Shown here: positions 19,215 through 32,411 of the stretch, in pieces | How the letters are laid out: every line of letters starts with the position of its first letter | Position numbering within the stretch: the first letter of the stretch is position 1 | Source of the DNA: Tidjanibacter sp. | GTDB taxonomy: Bacteria; Bacteroidota; Bacteroidia; Bacteroidales; Rikenellaceae | DNA length: 41,344 bases | Reading direction: 5' to 3' | Assembly (NCBI GenBank): GCA_017503465.1 | Contig: JAFVSY010000061.1 | Coordinates: 1 to 41,344 of the forward strand | Position numbers and translations under genes: made by a program | Notes under the pieces: generated by a model | What the model was told of the DNA's origin: nothing | Database searches by the model: none | Seen by the model: the letters and a program-made list of their open reading frames with translations, nothing else

Positions 19215-20558
19215 TTAGATTACACCCTGCTCCAGCATAGCCTGGGCAACCTTCATAAAGCCTGCAATGTTGGCACCCTTTACGTAGTCCACAGTGCCAT
19301 CGGCCTTCTGGCCAAAGCGCACGCACTGCTCGTGGATGCTTTGCATAATGAAGTGCAGTTTGTCGTCTACCTCCTGTGCCGACCAACTGAGGTGGGCAGC
19401 GTTCTGGGTCATCTCCAAGCCCGAAGTGGCAACACCACCGGCGTTCACTGCCTTGCCGGGTGCAAAGAGTATGCCCGCATTCTGGAAAGCGGCAATAGCC
19501 TCGGGGGTGCAACCCATATTCGACACCTCGCAGCAGCACCAAGTGCCATTGGCAAGGAGTTCTTTGGCATCCTCACCGTTGAGCTCATTCTGGAATGCGC
19601 ACGGCAGTGCAATGTCGCACTTCACGCTCCAAGCCTTCTTGCCTGCGGTGAACTTGGTGGCCTCGGGGAACTTGGTGTGCATATCCTCCACCTTGTTGCG
19701 GTTGGATGCACGCATCACAAGCATATAGTCAATCATCTCCTTGGTGATACCACCGGGGATTTCGCACACACCATCGGGACCGGAGATGGCAATCACCTTA
19801 CCACCCAACTCGGTAGCCTTTGTTGCTGCGCCCCAAGCCACGTTGCCGAAGCCCGAGAGTGCGATGGTCTTGCCCACGATGTTCTTGCCGGCCTTTGCCA
19901 ACACGTGCTCGGTGAAGTAGAGAGCGCCAAAGCCGGTAGCCTCGGGACGGAGAATGGAGCCACCCCAATTCTGGCCCTTGCCGGTCAGCACGCCCACGTT
20001 GTACTCACGAGCGAGCTTGGTGTACATACCAAACAGGTAGCCAATTTCCCTGCCACCAACGCCAACGTCGCCTGCGGGAACATCGGTGTCGCCACCAATG
20101 TTGTGCCACAACTCCAGCATAAAGGCCTGGCAGAAGCGCATAATCTCTGCCTCCGATTTGCCAACGGGGTCGAAGTCCGAACCACCCTTACCACCACCCA
20201 TAGGCAGCGTGGTGAGGGCATTCTTGAAGGTCTGCTCGAAGCCGAGGAATTTCAGCATAGAGGGGTTCACTGCCTTGTGGAAGCGAAGACCACCCTTGTA
20301 GGGACCGATGGCTGCGTTGAACTGCACACGATAACCGAGGTTTGTCTGCACCTCGCCCTTGTCGTCCACCCAGGTTACACGGAAGGTGAAGATGCGGTCG
20401 GGCTCAACCATACGCTCAACGATTTTGGCTTTCTCAAACTCGGGGTGCTGGTTGTAGACCTCCTCGATGCTCTCGAGCACCTCTTTGACTGCCTGCAAAT
20501 ACTCGCTCTCGCCGGGGTGCTTGCGCTCCAACTCGGCCATTAAGTTTTGGACGTTCAT
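19215..20558 (-). CDS. gdhA: Glutamate dehydrogenase, probably NADP-specific
   Basis: A 447-residue hexamer-type enzyme that interconverts 2-oxoglutarate plus ammonia and glutamate. Visible features: GPYKGGLRF with Lys88, the catalytic PMGGGKGG with Lys124, the AGDVGVGGREIGY segment, and the nucleotide loop SGFGNVAWG. Length and motif set match the short NADP-type GdhA of Bacteroides. The start ATG at 20558 gives the usual N-terminus. Confidence 0.95.
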   Translation of the reverse strand: MNVQNLMAELERKHPGESEYLQAVKEVLESIEEVYNQHPEFEKAKIVERMVEPDRIFTFRVTWVDDKGEVQTNLGYRVQFNAAIGPYKGGLRFHKAVNPSMLKFLGFEQTFKNALTTLPMGGGKGGSDFDPVGKSEAEIMRFCQAFMLELWHNIGGDTDVPAGDVGVGGREIGYLFGMYTKLAREYNVGVLTGKGQNWGGSILRPEATGFGALYFTEHVLAKAGKNIVGKTIALSGFGNVAWGAATKATELGGKVIAISGPDGVCEIPGGITKEMIDYMLVMRASNRNKVEDMHTKFPEATKFTAGKKAWSVKCDIALPCAFQNELNGEDAKELLANGTWCCCEVSNMGCTPEAIAAFQNAGILFAPGKAVNAGGVATSGLEMTQNAAHLSWSAQEVDDKLHFIMQSIHEQCVRFGQKADGTVDYVKGANIAGFMKVAQAMLEQGVI

Positions 20559-20640
20559 AGTTCTGAAATTTGGTTTTAAGTAAATAGTTTTATTATGTTA
20601 GGTTTGAATCTCTCGCTCCTTTGTGGTTTTAATCTTCCCT

Positions 20641-20648
20641 CAAAAATA
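20641..20648 (-). promoter_or_regulatory. gdhA promoter -7 box
   Basis: TATTTTTG on the minus strand, 82 nt before the gdhA ATG. No -33 element is clear at standard spacing. Confidence 0.4.
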
Positions 20649-20710
20649 GTTATTTTTCTTATAAATTGTAATCTCTTGCGATATTTTTCGCGTTTTTCGG
20701 AGCAATTTTG

Positions 20711-20718
20711 TATCTTTG
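20711..20718 (+). promoter_or_regulatory. gcvT promoter -7 box
   Basis: TATCTTTG, 60 nt before the gcvT ATG. The leader is too short and lacks the paired aptamers of a glycine riboswitch. Confidence 0.55.
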
Positions 20719-20778
20719 GCTTGCCAATGGCCCCAAAACGCAACTAACTTTCACACGTAACATAAAATTTCTTCAACG

Positions 20779-21888
20779 ATGGAAAACCTCAAAATTACCC
20801 CCTTCACCAAGTACCACATCGCCGCAGGCGCAAAAATGGCCCCCTTCGCTGGCTACAATATGCCCATCGAATTCATAGGTATCAACGCCGAGCACCTTTG
20901 GGTGCGTGAGGCTGTGGGCGTCTTCGACGTGAGCCATATGGGCGAAATCTGGGTCAAGGGCCCCAGGGCTGTGGAGTTCTTGCAGCACATCACCACCAAC
21001 AACGTGGCCGCACTCACCGATGGTAAGGTGCAATACTCCTGTATGCCCAACGGTAAGGGGGGTATTGTGGACGACCTGCTCGTCTACCGTGTGGATGAGC
21101 AGACCTACCTCCTTGTGGTCAATGCCGCCAACACCGACAAAGATTGGGCACACATCTGCGCCGAGGGCGTGGCCTACGGGCTTGAGGCTGGCCACGGCAA
21201 GCAACTCTACAACGCTTCGGACGAGATTTGCCAACTCGCCATCCAGGGCCCCCTGGCTCTGAAAATGGTGCAGAAGATGTGTGAGGAGCCCATCGAGGAT
21301 ATGCCATACTACACCTTCAAGAAACTGAAAGTGGCAGGCTGCGAGGCCATCCTCTCCACCACCGGCTACACCGGCTCGGGTGGCTGCGAGATTTACATTG
21401 CCAACGAGGATGCCGACCGCCTCTGGGAGGAGATGTGGCGTGTGGGCGAGGAGTTCGGACTGAAGAACATCGGCCTGGGCGCACGTGACACCCTCCGCCT
21501 GGAGAAGGGCTTCTGCCTCTATGGCCACGAGATTGACGACACAACCTCGCCCATCGAGGCAGGCTTGGGTTGGATTACCAAGTTTGTGGAGGGCAAGGAT
21601 TTCATTGATAGGGAGAAGATGGAGGCCCTCAAGGCTGGAGGTCTGGAGCGTAAACTCGTGGGCTTGCGACTGATTGACAGGGGTATTCCCCGTGCGGGCT
21701 ACACCATTGGCGATGCCGAGGGTAGGCCCATTGGTAACGTTGTGTCGGGTACAATGTCGCCTTGCTTGAAGGTTGGCATCGGCACCGGCTACGTGCCCAA
21801 GGAGTACGCCACCGTGGGCACCGTGCTGACGGTCATCGTGCGCGAAAGAGCCCTGACAGCCGAGGTGGTCAAACTGCCGTTTGTTTAG
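20779..21888 (+). CDS. gcvT: Aminomethyltransferase, glycine cleavage T protein
   Basis: A 369-residue folate-dependent enzyme that releases ammonia from aminomethyl-lipoyl GcvH and makes methylene-THF. Conserved stretches are FDVSHMGEIWVKGP (about 48-61), the QYSCMPNGKGGIVDDLLVYR folate-site region, TGYTGSGGCEIY and LGARDTLRLEKGFCLYGHE. A C-terminal barrel domain follows. It stands alone here without gcvH or gcvP. Its TAG stop codon is the first three bases of the first 9-nt unit of the following array. Confidence 0.95.
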   Translation: MENLKITPFTKYHIAAGAKMAPFAGYNMPIEFIGINAEHLWVREAVGVFDVSHMGEIWVKGPRAVEFLQHITTNNVAALTDGKVQYSCMPNGKGGIVDDLLVYRVDEQTYLLVVNAANTDKDWAHICAEGVAYGLEAGHGKQLYNASDEICQLAIQGPLALKMVQKMCEEPIEDMPYYTFKKLKVAGCEAILSTTGYTGSGGCEIYIANEDADRLWEEMWRVGEEFGLKNIGLGARDTLRLEKGFCLYGHEIDDTTSPIEAGLGWITKFVEGKDFIDREKMEALKAGGLERKLVGLRLIDRGIPRAGYTIGDAEGRPIGNVVSGTMSPCLKVGIGTGYVPKEYATVGTVLTVIVRERALTAEVVKLPFV

Positions 21889-22002
21889 GGAGAGTCGGGA
21901 GTTTAAGGAGATTAGGGAGTTTAGTGAGTTTAGGGAATTTAGGGAGTCTAAGGTATCTCGTCCCTAACTTCCCTAACTTCCCTAACTTCTCTATTATTCC
22001 CC
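21886..22002. repeat. 9-nt-period self-complementary array 1, upstream of the four-helix-bundle gene
   Basis: Eight consecutive nonamers of the TAGGGAGTT type cover 21886-21957 (TAGGGAGAG, TCGGGAGTT, TAAGGAGAT, TAGGGAGTT, TAGTGAGTT, TAGGGAATT, TAGGGAGTC, TAAGGTATC). After a 3-nt turn come three exact TCCCTAACT units and a looser one (21961-21996), then TTCCCC. The two arms are complementary, so the DNA or RNA can fold into a hairpin. The array fills most of the gap between gcvT and the next gene. Confidence 0.9.
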
Positions 22003-22027
22003 AATAAATTTAGAAAAGTGATTTCCA

Positions 22028-22585
22028 ATGAGCACCAATGAGTTAATCAAACGTCAAGGCGACCACCACAACTTGATATGTTTCCGTAAGGCCGAATTGC
22101 TTTTTGATATGACATATCACTTTGCACACACCGCCTTCGAAAAAGGCGATCGTACGATTGATCAAATGGTGCAGGCAGCTCGTTCCGGAAAACAAAATAT
22201 CGTAGAGGGGAATGCCGACATTGAGACTTCACTCGAGATGGGCATCAAGTTGCTGAATGTTGCCAAGGCAAGTTTTCAGGAACTGCTGTCAGATTATGAG
22301 GATTTCTTGCGTGTCAATGGTTATGCGCAGTGGGAGACCACATCGAAAGAGTATGTGGCGATGCGCAAACTTGGCATTGAGGGAAACAACGCTAACATCC
22401 TGACAATCGCAAAATCACGCCCACTTGATACGGTGGCAAATATGGCAATTATTCTCATCAAACAAGAGGATTATCTCTTACATCAATTGCTCAAATCACT
22501 CTCCAACCGCTTTGTGAAAGAGGGCGGCTTCAAGGAACGTATGTATAGGGCGAGGGTGCAGAATAGAGAGATAAAGGGAAGTTAG
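22028..22585 (+). CDS. Four-helix-bundle protein, 23S rRNA IVS/S23-like
   Basis: A 185-residue helical protein. The segment DQMVQAARSGKQNIVEG (about 45-61) corresponds to the conserved QlrRAaxSixxNIaEG core of the four-helix-bundle family first seen in 23S rRNA intervening sequences. A long C-terminal helical extension (about 100-165) and basic tail (RMYRARVQNREIKGS) fit the 'four helix bundle suffix' subgroup. The basic surface suggests nucleic-acid binding (inference). Base composition differs from the neighbours: one 60-nt line here is 43% G+C against 63% in a gcvT line, which hints at transfer. The last three codons and the stop lie inside array 2, and array 1 precedes the gene. Function unknown. 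Confidence 0.85.
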   Translation: MSTNELIKRQGDHHNLICFRKAELLFDMTYHFAHTAFEKGDRTIDQMVQAARSGKQNIVEGNADIETSLEMGIKLLNVAKASFQELLSDYEDFLRVNGYAQWETTSKEYVAMRKLGIEGNNANILTIAKSRPLDTVANMAIILIKQEDYLLHQLLKSLSNRFVKEGGFKERMYRARVQNREIKGS

Positions 22586-22670
22586 GGAGATTAGAGAGTT
22601 TAGGGAGATTAGGGAGATTAGGGAACTCCCTACATTCCCTACATTCCCTACATTCCCTAACCTCCCTATA
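22574..22670. repeat. 9-nt-period self-complementary array 2, downstream of the four-helix-bundle gene
   Basis: The G-rich arm (22574-22625) consists of nonamers AAGGGAAGT, TAGGGAGAT, TAGAGAGTT, TAGGGAGAT, TAGGGAGAT and a partial TAGGGAA. It is followed at once by five C-rich nonamers (CTCCCTACA, three TTCCCTA-type, CTCCCTATA; 22626-22670). The first unit encodes the last three residues of the upstream gene and the second starts with its stop codon. The arms can pair with each other and also with the arms of array 1. Confidence 0.9.
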
Positions 22671-22805: not shown

Positions 22806-22855
22806 CCTCCCCTAAGTTAGGGGAGGTGGTGCGGTAAGCACCGGAGGGGTTTGTC
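22806..22855. repeat. REP-like palindromic element, copy A
   Basis: Palindrome CCTCCCCTAA-G-TTAGGGGAGG (22806-22826) followed by a second hairpin GGTGC-ggtaa-GCACC and a GGAGGGGTTTGTC tail. The layout is the same as at 1-50 but the sequence is a distinct subtype. It faces copy B about 45 nt downstream in inverted orientation. Confidence 0.8.
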
Positions 22856-22900
22856 ATAAGCCGTTAGGTTATTAGCAGTCGGTCGGCGGTCATCGTTTAT

Positions 22901-22950
22901 TACAGACGCCCCCGTCACTTCGTGCCACCCCCTCTAACTTAGAGGGGGAC
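22901..22950. repeat. REP-like palindromic element, copy B (inverted)
   Basis: Palindrome CCCCCTCTAA-C-TTAGAGGGGG at 22928-22948, preceded by the CAC-ttc-GTG hairpin and the ACAGACG end. It is the reverse complement of the element at 1-50 with 46 of 50 identical. With copy A it forms an inverted REP pair. Confidence 0.8.
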
Positions 22951-28618: not shown

Positions 28619-29203
28619 ATGAAGAACAAAGGTTTATGGATTGCATTGGCTGCGGTTGCAGTCGTGCTGGTGTGGGGCGTGTCGAAGTACAACGCTCTGG
28701 TGGGTAGCAACGAGAAGGTCGAAAATGCTTGGAGTCAGGTGGAGAATCAGTACCAACGCCGTGCTGACCTCATCCCCAACCTCGTGAATACCGTCAAGGG
28801 CTACGCAGCCCACGAGCAGAGCACCCTTGAGGAGGTGGTGGCTGCACGCGCCAAGGCTACACAACTCACCGTGGATGCCTCTTCGCTCACTCCCGAAAAA
28901 CTTGCCGAGTACCAGAAGGTGCAGGGCGAGGTGGGCTCGGCATTGGGCCGACTGATGGCCATAAGTGAGGCCTACCCCGACCTGAAGGCCAACCAAAACT
29001 TTATGGAGTTGCAGGCCCAGTTGGAGGGCACCGAGAACCGCATCGCCGTGGCCCGCAGGGATTTCAACGAGAGCGTGAGGGCCTACAATCTGCGCACCAA
29101 ACGCTTCCCCGCAAACATCATCGCCTCGATGTTCGGCTTTGAGCCCAAGGCATACTTTGAGGCTGCCAGCGGTGCCGAGAGCGCACCCACTGTGGAGTTT
29201 TAG
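28619..29203 (+). CDS. lemA: LemA family protein
   Basis: A 194-residue protein. An N-terminal membrane helix (about 5-22, GLWIALAAVAVVLVWGV) is followed by an all-helical domain. Family motifs: YNALVGSNEKVENAWSQVENQYQRRADLIPNLV, then LMAISEAYPDLKANQNFMELQ and ENRIAVARRDFNESVRAYN. Its role is not settled; it usually travels with TPM-domain genes, as here (51 nt gap), and may act in membrane or envelope function. The ATG at 28619 was chosen because the membrane helix follows at once. Confidence 0.93.
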   Translation: MKNKGLWIALAAVAVVLVWGVSKYNALVGSNEKVENAWSQVENQYQRRADLIPNLVNTVKGYAAHEQSTLEEVVAARAKATQLTVDASSLTPEKLAEYQKVQGEVGSALGRLMAISEAYPDLKANQNFMELQAQLEGTENRIAVARRDFNESVRAYNLRTKRFPANIIASMFGFEPKAYFEAASGAESAPTVEF

Positions 29204-29263
29204 GAATTAGTAAAGAGTAGTTAGTAATTAGTAAATATTTGCTGACCGCTGATTGCTGACCGC
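29204..29263. repeat. TTAGTAA-type and GCTGACCGC repeats after lemA
   Basis: Immediately after the lemA stop, TTAGTAA/GTAGTTAG units run to about 29236. They are followed by two copies of GCTGACCGC (29241-29249 and 29255-29263). The AT-rich part is also found after the rpe and ABC-F genes. Confidence 0.65.
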
Positions 29264-29278
29264 TTAAAACAATTGACT

Positions 29279-31704: not shown

Positions 31705-32376
31705 ATGAGCAACAACAAAAAACGCATCGTTTCGCCCTCGATGCTCTCGGCCGACTTCGGCCACTTGGAGCGAGATACACGTATGATTGACCGCAGCGCG
31801 GCCGAATGGGTACACATCGACGTTATGGACGGAGTCTTTGTGCCCAACATATCGTTTGGCTTCCCCGTGCTGAAAGCCATCACGGCGGCCACGCAGAAGT
31901 TTATGGACGTGCACCTGATGATTGTGGAGCCGGAGAAGTATGTGGAACGCTTTGTGAAGGCAGGAGCCGACCTTGTTACGTTCCACTTGGAGGCCACCAA
32001 GGATGTGCAGGGCTGCATCGACCTCATTCGCCACAGTGGAGCCAAGGTGGGTGTGAGCATCAAACCGGCCACCCCCGTGGAGGCCATTGAAGAGTGGCTG
32101 CCCCAGATTGACTTGGTGCTGGTGATGAGCGTGGAGCCCGGCTTTGGAGGTCAGAGTTTCATTGAGGGTAGTGCCGAGAAGGTGTCTGCCTTGCGGGGGA
32201 TGATTGAGAGGCGTGGGCTGGAGGTGCTCATAGAGATAGACGGAGGGGTTAGCCGCCACAATGCGGGTGCCCTCTACGAGGCCGGTTGCGATGTGCTGGT
32301 TGCGGGAAGTGCGGTGTTCAAAGCCCCCGACCCCGAGGCCGAAATTGTGGCAATGCTTGATGCGTCTACAAATTAG
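31705..32376 (+). CDS. rpe: Ribulose-phosphate 3-epimerase
   Basis: A 223-residue TIM-barrel enzyme of the pentose phosphate pathway. Metal ligands His37 and Asp39 lie in VHIDVMDG, His70 in DVHLM, and the second catalytic Asp in EIDGGV. The phosphate loop VSVEPGFGGQ... is present. It ends with a TAG that forms part of the following TTAGTAA repeat. Confidence 0.96.
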   Translation: MSNNKKRIVSPSMLSADFGHLERDTRMIDRSAAEWVHIDVMDGVFVPNISFGFPVLKAITAATQKFMDVHLMIVEPEKYVERFVKAGADLVTFHLEATKDVQGCIDLIRHSGAKVGVSIKPATPVEAIEEWLPQIDLVLVMSVEPGFGGQSFIEGSAEKVSALRGMIERRGLEVLIEIDGGVSRHNAGALYEAGCDVLVAGSAVFKAPDPEAEIVAMLDASTN

Positions 32377-32402
32377 TAATTAGTAAAGAGTAATTAGTAA
32401 AT
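32374..32402. repeat. TTAGTAA-type repeat after rpe
   Basis: AT-rich units (TTAGTAA, AGAGTAA) start in the rpe stop codon. The block AATTAGTAAAGAGTA is shared with 29205-29219 after lemA. Confidence 0.65.
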
Positions 32403-32411
32403 ATCGCCCTT

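Follow-up and report, generated by a model that had tools for sequence, protein, structure and literature searches.

The stretch of DNA analysed here (the window) comprises 41,344 nucleotides (nt) of a Tidjanibacter sp. genome (contig JAFVSY010000061.1) and carries, behind gcvT, a gene (22028–22585) for a relative of the S23 proteins, four-helix bundles encoded in intervening sequences (IVS) of 23S rRNA, with an array of tandem 9-nt units on each side. We observed that relatives of this gene, too, stand between such arrays, the whole recurring as a unit in varying genomic surroundings and in several bacterial phyla, that the length of the array unit (6–11 nt) goes with the clade of the protein and that, at 9 and 7 nt, the sequence of the unit goes with the protein as well. 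Dispersed arrays standing alone (solo arrays) resemble the arrays beside the gene of their own genome; they were present in the four gene-bearing genomes sampled and in neither of the two gene-less genomes of the same genus sampled. The partnership of gene and array is well supported, and we consider it rather probable that the two constitute a selfish or symbiotic array-ended element, encoding an S23/Avd-type protein with no recognised nuclease and working like the repetitive extragenic palindromic (REP) doublets forming hairpins and their REP-associated tyrosine transposases (REPIN/RAYT).

Arrays at homologous loci

The gene and the arms of its two arrays are arranged as follows:

22028–22585, + strand: TIGR04258 gene, 185 aa, assigned by profile matches, with purifying selection in relatives
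~21888–21958, + strand: left array, G-rich arm, each 9-nt unit made of the core TTAGGGA and two variable bases, beginning at the gcvT stop codon
21961–21993, + strand: left array, C-rich arm, (TCCCTAACT)n
22575–22624, + strand: right array, G-rich arm
22627–22668, + strand: right array, C-rich arm, (TCCCTACAT)n, forming a hairpin with the G-rich arm

All four arms have a period of 9, and the right G-rich arm overlaps the end of the open reading frame (ORF), whose stop codon, TAG, falls within a unit.

Homologous loci were scored for units of 5–12 nt in 350-nt flanks. The threshold was the 95th percentile of the scores of 593 pairs of random positions drawn from five sampled Bacteroidales genomes (5% of the pairs reach it), and it was applied as it stands to plasmid and viral-contig loci. 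Flanking arrays were found at 86 of 103 TIGR04258 loci (unit 9 in 72, 10 in nine, 7 in two, 12 in two and 8 in one) and at 58 of 66 plain PF05635 loci (unit 7 in 30, 8 in 18, 6 in four, 11 in two and others in four). An earlier reading of the window, made from the sequence only, had treated the gene and the two arrays around it as a single unit, and these counts bear it out: homologues do not usually lack arrays. By source, the TIGR04258 loci with arrays were 65/75 among named relatives, 8/8 in the genus and 13/20 in a draw over the order, in which TIGR04258 was matched in 20/198 genomes at an expect value (E) of 0.001, 18 of them above the curated cut-off. Since the 80 named loci are the best 80 of 566 relatives, this sample leans towards the window protein. 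The plain genes had first been meant as a negative control; as they had arrays of other unit lengths, random positions, neighbouring ORFs and gene-less genomes became the controls. Neighbouring ORFs in the same named loci reached the threshold in 56/253 cases, against 65/75 for the family gene (Fisher p ~2e-24), and by a simpler flank measure lag 9 was best in 73/106 loci compared with 23/153 control windows.

Eleven of 106 TIGR04258 loci were dropped (fragments, contig-edge or divergent matches, and the fused loci L055, L116, L119, L123 and L127); only L059 among them reached the control level of the simpler measure, and counting all eleven as misses gives 86/114. Also left out were L148 (cut by a contig end), the broken L150 and L151, L140 (a copy of the window) and the plain L192 (internal stop), while L098 and L144 have identical proteins and are probably one genome counted twice. 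The plain set consists of 67 of the matches listed (27 loci and 40 further rows), and in L340, which has two genes, the first was scored. The sole unit-9 case among above-threshold plain loci is L185 of genome G124, with 9-nt flanks (GGGTTCAAA).

Plasmids yielded 32 records matching a plain protein, of which 25 were examined (H26–H32 were left out). Arrays were present at 24 of these 25 loci (22/23 cyanobacterial, plus Gemmatirosa and Azospirillum), with unit 7 in 19 and unit 8 in five, and 14/24 were clearly inverted. In Nostoc edaphicum, for example, the gene is preceded by AGTAGGG arrays and followed by CCCTACT arrays, and stands between the two genes for ribonucleotide reductase. The sole TIGR04258 match on a plasmid (Prevotella nigrescens) has a 9-nt array downstream. 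Three cyanobacterial plasmids (L467, L473 and L475) have array-bearing S23-type genes inside CRISPR-cas loci, twice between cas6 and cas4 and once between cas10 and a cmr3-family gene, in agreement with the reported occurrence of PF05635 in cas loci (PMC3936711). Viral contigs had arrays at 13 of 15 distinct loci (22 loci in all), and phage records gave no match to two queries.

Association of unit length and unit sequence with the protein

In a tree built from 169 proteins (a unit was assigned for 144), obtained by a quick method with no mixture model and with a long-branch warning, unit length changed 32 times, compared with 64.8 ± 2.2 changes in 200 label shuffles, none of which was as low. 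The split of 9/10-nt units from the rest, a 6-nt clade (4/4) and an 11-nt pair are clear; units of 7 and 8 nt are mixed. Unit sequence correlated with protein identity at 9 nt (Mantel r 0.66, and 0.46 without pairs at or above 70%; 0/2000 permutations) and at 7 nt (r 0.36; 0/2000 permutations). Shared descent of gene and array could be part of the cause of this correlation; close pairs with a synonymous divergence (dS) near 1 still have array cores in common.

The same correspondence was seen within genomes. Dispersed 9-nt arrays, with the gene site excluded, fitted the flanks of their own gene best (rank 1/71) in G000, G215 and G142, by a narrow margin in G215 (0.618 vs 0.612); for the dispersed 8-nt arrays of G081 one own gene had rank 1/17, and for the 7-nt arrays of G000 one own gene had rank 2/29.

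Dispersed arrays in the genome and in the genus

The genome containing the window, a draft of 1.97 Mb in 135 contigs, has one TIGR04258 gene only and 104 exact matches to TTAGGGANNTTAGGGA. Of the remaining 197 genomes in the order draw, 195, including G113 of the same genus, have no match and two have a single one each; with at most one mismatch, there are 254 matches in the window genome and none to the reversed control. A sample of ~399 kb contained 35 arrays at lags 9 and 18, 31 of them not beside the gene. These matches show that the arrays are not private to the gene. One such array lies in the window:

165–325, + strand: solo 9-nt array of the same kind (G-rich 165–280, C-rich to ~325), without a neighbouring family gene in the window

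This array, to the left of which the contig ends, adjoins short 7-nt GAGAATT repeats at 144–160. Some other arrays are no more than 50 nt from the end of a contig (e.g., C28 and C41); arrays may be assembly break points. At 29200–29264 and 32371–32403, the window also has 7-nt arrays (TTAGTAA, AATTAGT and GCTGACC types), which resemble the many 7-nt arrays of the same genome.

A TIGR04258 homologue was found in 9 of 23 genomes of the genus, and the array pattern in 8/9 gene-bearing and 5/14 other genomes (Fisher p 0.029); among genomes at least 95% complete, these proportions were 3/3 and 0/6 (p 0.012). De novo scans of 344–400 kb per genome at lags 7, 8 and 9 gave, respectively, 37, 0 and 32 arrays in G000, 34, 0 and 93 in G215, 4, 0 and 4 in G142, and 4, 4 and 2 in G081. 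No arrays at these lags were present in the samples of G216 and G113, both of the same genus and without a TIGR04258 homologue (PF05635 had no match in G113; G216 was not searched for it). In G000, two plain PF05635 genes, both with 7-nt flanks, accompany the TIGR04258 gene, in keeping with the arrays at both lag 7 and lag 9.

The cores of the arrays beside TIGR04258 genes of the order draw vary (TAATGGG, ATTAGTC, GGGAC and GCTATAG). In exact searches of 30 genomes, TAATGGG doublets were confined to the two genomes in which they flank the gene itself (7 and 2 matches). ATTAGTC was matched in G142 (14), G025 (1) and G031 (1), the highest number of GGGAC triplets was that of G124 (18), and no genome had more than 3 GCTATAG doublets.

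Changes of context and the gcvT site

Among 59 pairs of close homologues (gene at least 75% identical), 47 had no flank homology at 350–2500 nt from the gene (blastn, E 1e-10, 150 nt; some pairs could be compared on one side only). At the gcvT site, the window is 95.4% identical to G204 over 19280–21892 and 88% identical to G214 over 19266–21892, each alignment stopping at the very start of the left array. In G204 and G214, the nearest relatives with a readable gcvT 3' end, the gene is absent behind gcvT; G207, a third near relative, runs off its contig there, and G215 has an array at the site and no gene. The far side is unaligned as well, so that the end of homology may reflect insertion, deletion or rearrangement at the array. 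The strain polymorphism at gcvT expected from the sequence-only reading is seen in the absence of the gene from G204 and G214 and in the end of homology at 21892, though not as a clean empty site. The same holds for the proposal of a mobile or selfish element: the pairs in different contexts are signs of mobility, and a clean empty site is missing.

The gene and its protein family

The window protein is a member of TIGR04258 ('four helix bundle suffix'), with 70.9 bits against a curated cut-off of 40. It matched the S23-IVS models less strongly, PF05635 with 25.2 bits (cut-off 33.8, E 2e-5) and TIGR02436 with 23.7 bits (cut-off 24, E 4e-5), so that it is a relative of the PF05635/TIGR02436 four-helix bundle below the membership cut-offs, in line with the IVS/S23 relationship first proposed for it. 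The S23/IVS-type four-helix region corresponds to ~22070–22297 and the suffix domain to ~22430–22567; the TIGR04258 model was matched at E 0.001 by 48/48 aligned rows, the window included. A plain family member matched the solved structures 2GSC (E 3.8e-24) and 2RLD (E 2.9e-7) and the Avd family of PHROGs (E 2e-12), whereas the window protein matched 2GSC marginally (E 0.34, profile search) and no PHROG. Its nearest named matches are proteins of ruminant-gut metagenome-assembled genomes labelled Alistipes and Rikenellaceae. Ratios of nonsynonymous to synonymous substitution (dN/dS) of 0.00–0.13 in 13 close pairs (ten TIGR04258, three plain) show that the family proteins are under strong purifying selection.

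In the profile libraries, PADLOC and PHROGs, the window protein had no match to a family of nucleases, transposases or polymerases. With respect to Y1/HUH transposases, there were only the four-helix models and sub-threshold matches, none of them in PADLOC or PHROGs. A known defence system was considered and rejected, with 0 families matched among the PADLOC models, and Rfam gave three miRNA-model matches, all far under gathering scores. The gene is AT-richer than its neighbours, as had been noticed before (GC content 0.44 at 22000–22499, compared with 0.54–0.60 in windows over gcvT). These neighbours are protein genes; by Pfam, the four flanking genes code for glutamate dehydrogenase, GcvT, a PepSY-like protein and a PHO4 transporter. 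The element was also considered, and rejected, as a diversity-generating retroelement (DGR), there being no reverse transcriptase among these four genes.

Pairing within and between the arrays

Each array had been predicted to form its own hairpin. For the right array this is firm, as it folded better than all of 200 shuffles on either strand (z −5.4 on the + strand and −6.4 on the − strand); the claim holds for this array only, because the left one hardly outfolds its shuffles (z −1.6 and −2.3, with 13 and 4 of 200 as good). A stem that loops out the gene had also been proposed. In the window, inverted pairs of 32–37 nt with 76–81% complementarity exist between the two flanks, so that the ORF stands between inverted arms able to pair, though not within a helix of 23S rRNA. 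Such a stem around the gene is what plain PF05635 loci usually have, their upstream and downstream arrays being inverted copies of each other in 42/57, but it does not dominate in TIGR04258 loci, where the inverted arrangement was better in 18/84 and the direct one in 28/84, with no preference for inversion. The median within-flank hairpin score was ~19 in TIGR04258 loci compared with 12 in plain loci, and the window flanks likewise each have both arms. A strict polarity rule for the arrays was ruled out, since the 44 plain loci measurable on both sides divide into 29 with G-rich upstream and C-rich downstream arrays, five with the reverse and ten with neither.

Relation to known systems

In REPIN/RAYT systems a gene has its cognate repeat beside it, the same repeat is dispersed extragenically as inverted pairs, and co-evolution of gene and repeat was proposed (PMC3116915). 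Here, too, cognate repeats lie both beside the gene and dispersed in the genome. Unlike in those systems, the gene codes for a four-helix bundle that matches no transposase, and the repeat is a tandem array of 6–11-nt words of clade-dependent length instead of a single palindrome of 20–40 bp. With the 23S rRNA IVS, the element shares a homologous protein family and an ORF between inverted repeats (PMC4990558), but it lies outside rRNA, its arms are short tandem arrays and solo arrays are dispersed. PF05635 was also described in rRNA insertions of bacteria of the candidate phyla radiation (PMC11270868). Avd of the DGRs is a related protein, the resemblance of PF05635 to Avd having been pointed out (PMC10053308); here, none of the four genes that flank the family gene, the only ones of the genome screened for this, codes for a reverse transcriptase.

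Dispersed 7-nt tandem arrays, such as TAACTGA (MacGregor, 2015) and GGGNATC (Rehm, 2015), were described in cyanobacteria, Xanthomonas and some Bacteroidetes, and GGGAATC heptamers were reported all over the genome of Xanthomonas campestris ATCC 33913 (Rehm, 2015). In our survey, S23 genes of cyanobacterial plasmids are bracketed by 7- or 8-nt arrays, whereas these two articles describe arrays alone, and the terms 'helix bundle' and 'S23' have 0 occurrences in their main texts. A mobile repeat-binding protein was raised there as a possibility, with none named (MacGregor, 2015). Among the matches listed from the open full-text literature, a scope that has subscription journals and most preprints outside it, no title or abstract links the protein family to short tandem arrays. 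Heptamer arrays and IVS/S23 elements are already published; we have seen no paper reporting the link between protein and array. S23/IVS proteins have long been known, with a function lacking (PMC4990558), and the heptamer arrays of bacterial genomes were described without a cause (MacGregor, 2015; Rehm, 2015); our data tie the one to the other.

Proposed mechanism and alternative explanations

We hypothesize that an oligomeric S23/Avd-type protein would recognise the units, single-stranded or as a hairpin, and that unit length may be the spacing that the oligomer fits; the protein of structure 2GSC (XCC0516) is a homopentamer (PMC4990558). Together with host enzymes, the protein would promote the spread of array copies to further non-coding sites, the solo arrays would be non-autonomous derivatives, and the gene would persist because its own arrays carry it along. 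The 'gene in a loop' of the plain loci may be the ancestral form, and solo arrays, comparable to REPINs, may derive from it without the gene; this sequence of events is conjectural. In its most general form, which we put forward tentatively and at slightly less than even chances, S23/Avd-type oligomers would be molecular rulers that set and propagate arrays of fixed, clade-specific unit length (6–11 nt) without a transposase of their own, forming a new class of mobile or symbiotic DNA. If true, this would account both for the arrays of heptamers and nonamers that occur in Bacteroidota, cyanobacteria and xanthomonads and for the role of the IVS/S23 proteins, and, if the protein drives array spread, there would be a route of genome rearrangement without a known enzyme. 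The unit length around a PF05635 gene should then be guessable from the clade of its protein. GGGAATC arrays are predicted on both sides of XCC0516 (the S23 protein of X. campestris with structure 2GSC), which we take to be a locus of strain ATCC 33913.

Several observations weigh against an array-ended element maintained by its protein. No clean empty site with a target duplication was found at gcvT, and the downstream side of G204 and G214 differs too. Among the plain proteins alone, unit length changes 19 times compared with 24.6 ± 1.6 (1/200 shuffles as low), with 7 and 8 nt intermixed; within TIGR04258 the signal is weak (12 changes vs 13.7 ± 0.5, 7/200 as low), and at 8 nt the correlation of unit sequence with protein falls to r 0.02 once near-identical pairs are removed. 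The second 7-nt gene of G000 has rank 14/29 against the dispersed 7-nt arrays. TTAGGGA arrays occur in five gene-less genomes of the genus (G201, G202, G210, G211 and G214), which are 77–92% complete, so that gene loss or a missed gene is possible, and G212 has the gene and none of the exact TTAGGGA array pattern. The four 7-nt arrays of G142 are not accompanied by another PF05635 gene, and G124 has 18 matches to GGGAC-type 9-nt arrays but no TIGR04258 match. In the even draw over the order, only 13/20 TIGR04258 loci reach the threshold, and random pairs also peak at lag 9 (167/593), as well as at 12 and 6, presumably owing to codon periodicity, so that weak 9-nt calls say less than strong ones. 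Arrays are absent from a plain clade of four (L193, L356, L357 and L359; 4/4) and from five TIGR04258 loci fused to another gene. Finally, the prediction that viral TAACTGA arrays accompany PF05635-like genes failed, such an ORF being found in 1 of 80 loci (104 matching stretches), 1.3 kb away.

The relationship of the protein to the 23S IVS ORFs and to the DGR accessory protein Avd would also suit an RNA-level element resembling the rRNA IVS, in which putative transcribed array hairpins process or protect mRNA ends, the protein serves them as an RNA chaperone and spread results incidentally from reverse transcription or recombination. The inverted array pairs around plain genes, the folding of the right hairpin and the published IVS, which are stem-loops with the ORF in the loop and are cut by RNase III (PMC4990558), are in keeping with it. 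Nevertheless, arrays are found between convergent, tandem and divergent genes alike, and no ORF of at least 150 aa with a YxDD-type motif was found in the 22 viral loci of ~3 kb, so we regard this explanation as rather unlikely. Lower still is the probability that we give to a host system, in which the protein would be an RNA- or DNA-binding regulator or architectural factor and the arrays its sites, kept by selection at gene ends. Strong purifying selection would be expected of such a system, and so would the position of the arrays: clusters lie mostly outside ORFs of at least 100 aa (48/64 in G000, 68/83 in G215), often close behind a stop codon in G000 (17/44 distances of at most 10 nt; 8/64 in G215), and are rather rare between divergent genes in G000 (3/39 vs 22/119 intergenic regions), though not clearly so in G215 (10/54 vs 29/128). 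Regulatory roles were indeed suggested for heptamer arrays (MacGregor, 2015; Rehm, 2015). The patchy distribution within the genus (9/23 genomes), the different contexts of close homologues (47/59 pairs) and the presence in a single genome of family genes of different unit lengths argue against it.

Alternatively, arrays born by slippage could be recombination hot spots that catch small genes, with a protein unrelated to the arrays. Polymerase slippage was cited as a hypothesis for the heptamers (Rehm, 2015, discussion), and the arrays are dispersed and variable; yet unit length tracks the protein clade, unit sequence tracks protein and genome, neighbouring ORFs reach the threshold far less often than the family gene, and the two gene-less samples of the same genus have no 7–9-nt arrays. 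We therefore disfavour this explanation as very improbable. Selection on G-tracts for G-quadruplex formation is barely credible as a general account, for which it is inadequate: the window units do have GGG every 9 nt and published heptamers form G-quadruplexes in vitro (PMC4692102), but GGG or CCC is present in at least half of the units at only 31 of 141 array-bearing loci, and many units are AT-rich (e.g., AAATTCA and ATTAGTCTA). The array-ended element of REPIN/RAYT type thus remains the explanation that we prefer.

Further observations

In the five fused loci (L055, at 1105–2847, L116, L119, L123 and L127), the TIGR04258 domain is in one frame with a MeaB GTPase, named by PF03308 with 338 bits in L055 and judged by frame length only in the other four. 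Because they have no flanking arrays, these fusions are perhaps a domesticated form.

Six viral contigs (L375, L377, L390, L404, L435 and L442) have two TAACTGA arrays 432 or 439 nt apart, with no PF05635-like ORF in these contigs.

A separate palindromic repeat lies at 22809–22946 of the window (CCCCTAAGTTAGGGG ... CCCTCTAACTTAGAGGG), and CCCTCTAAGTTAGAGGG is found at the left end, at 3–19. This repeat is also dispersed, CCCTCTAACTTAGAGGG being present in 12 of 492 loci, some of which are overlapping copies of the window.

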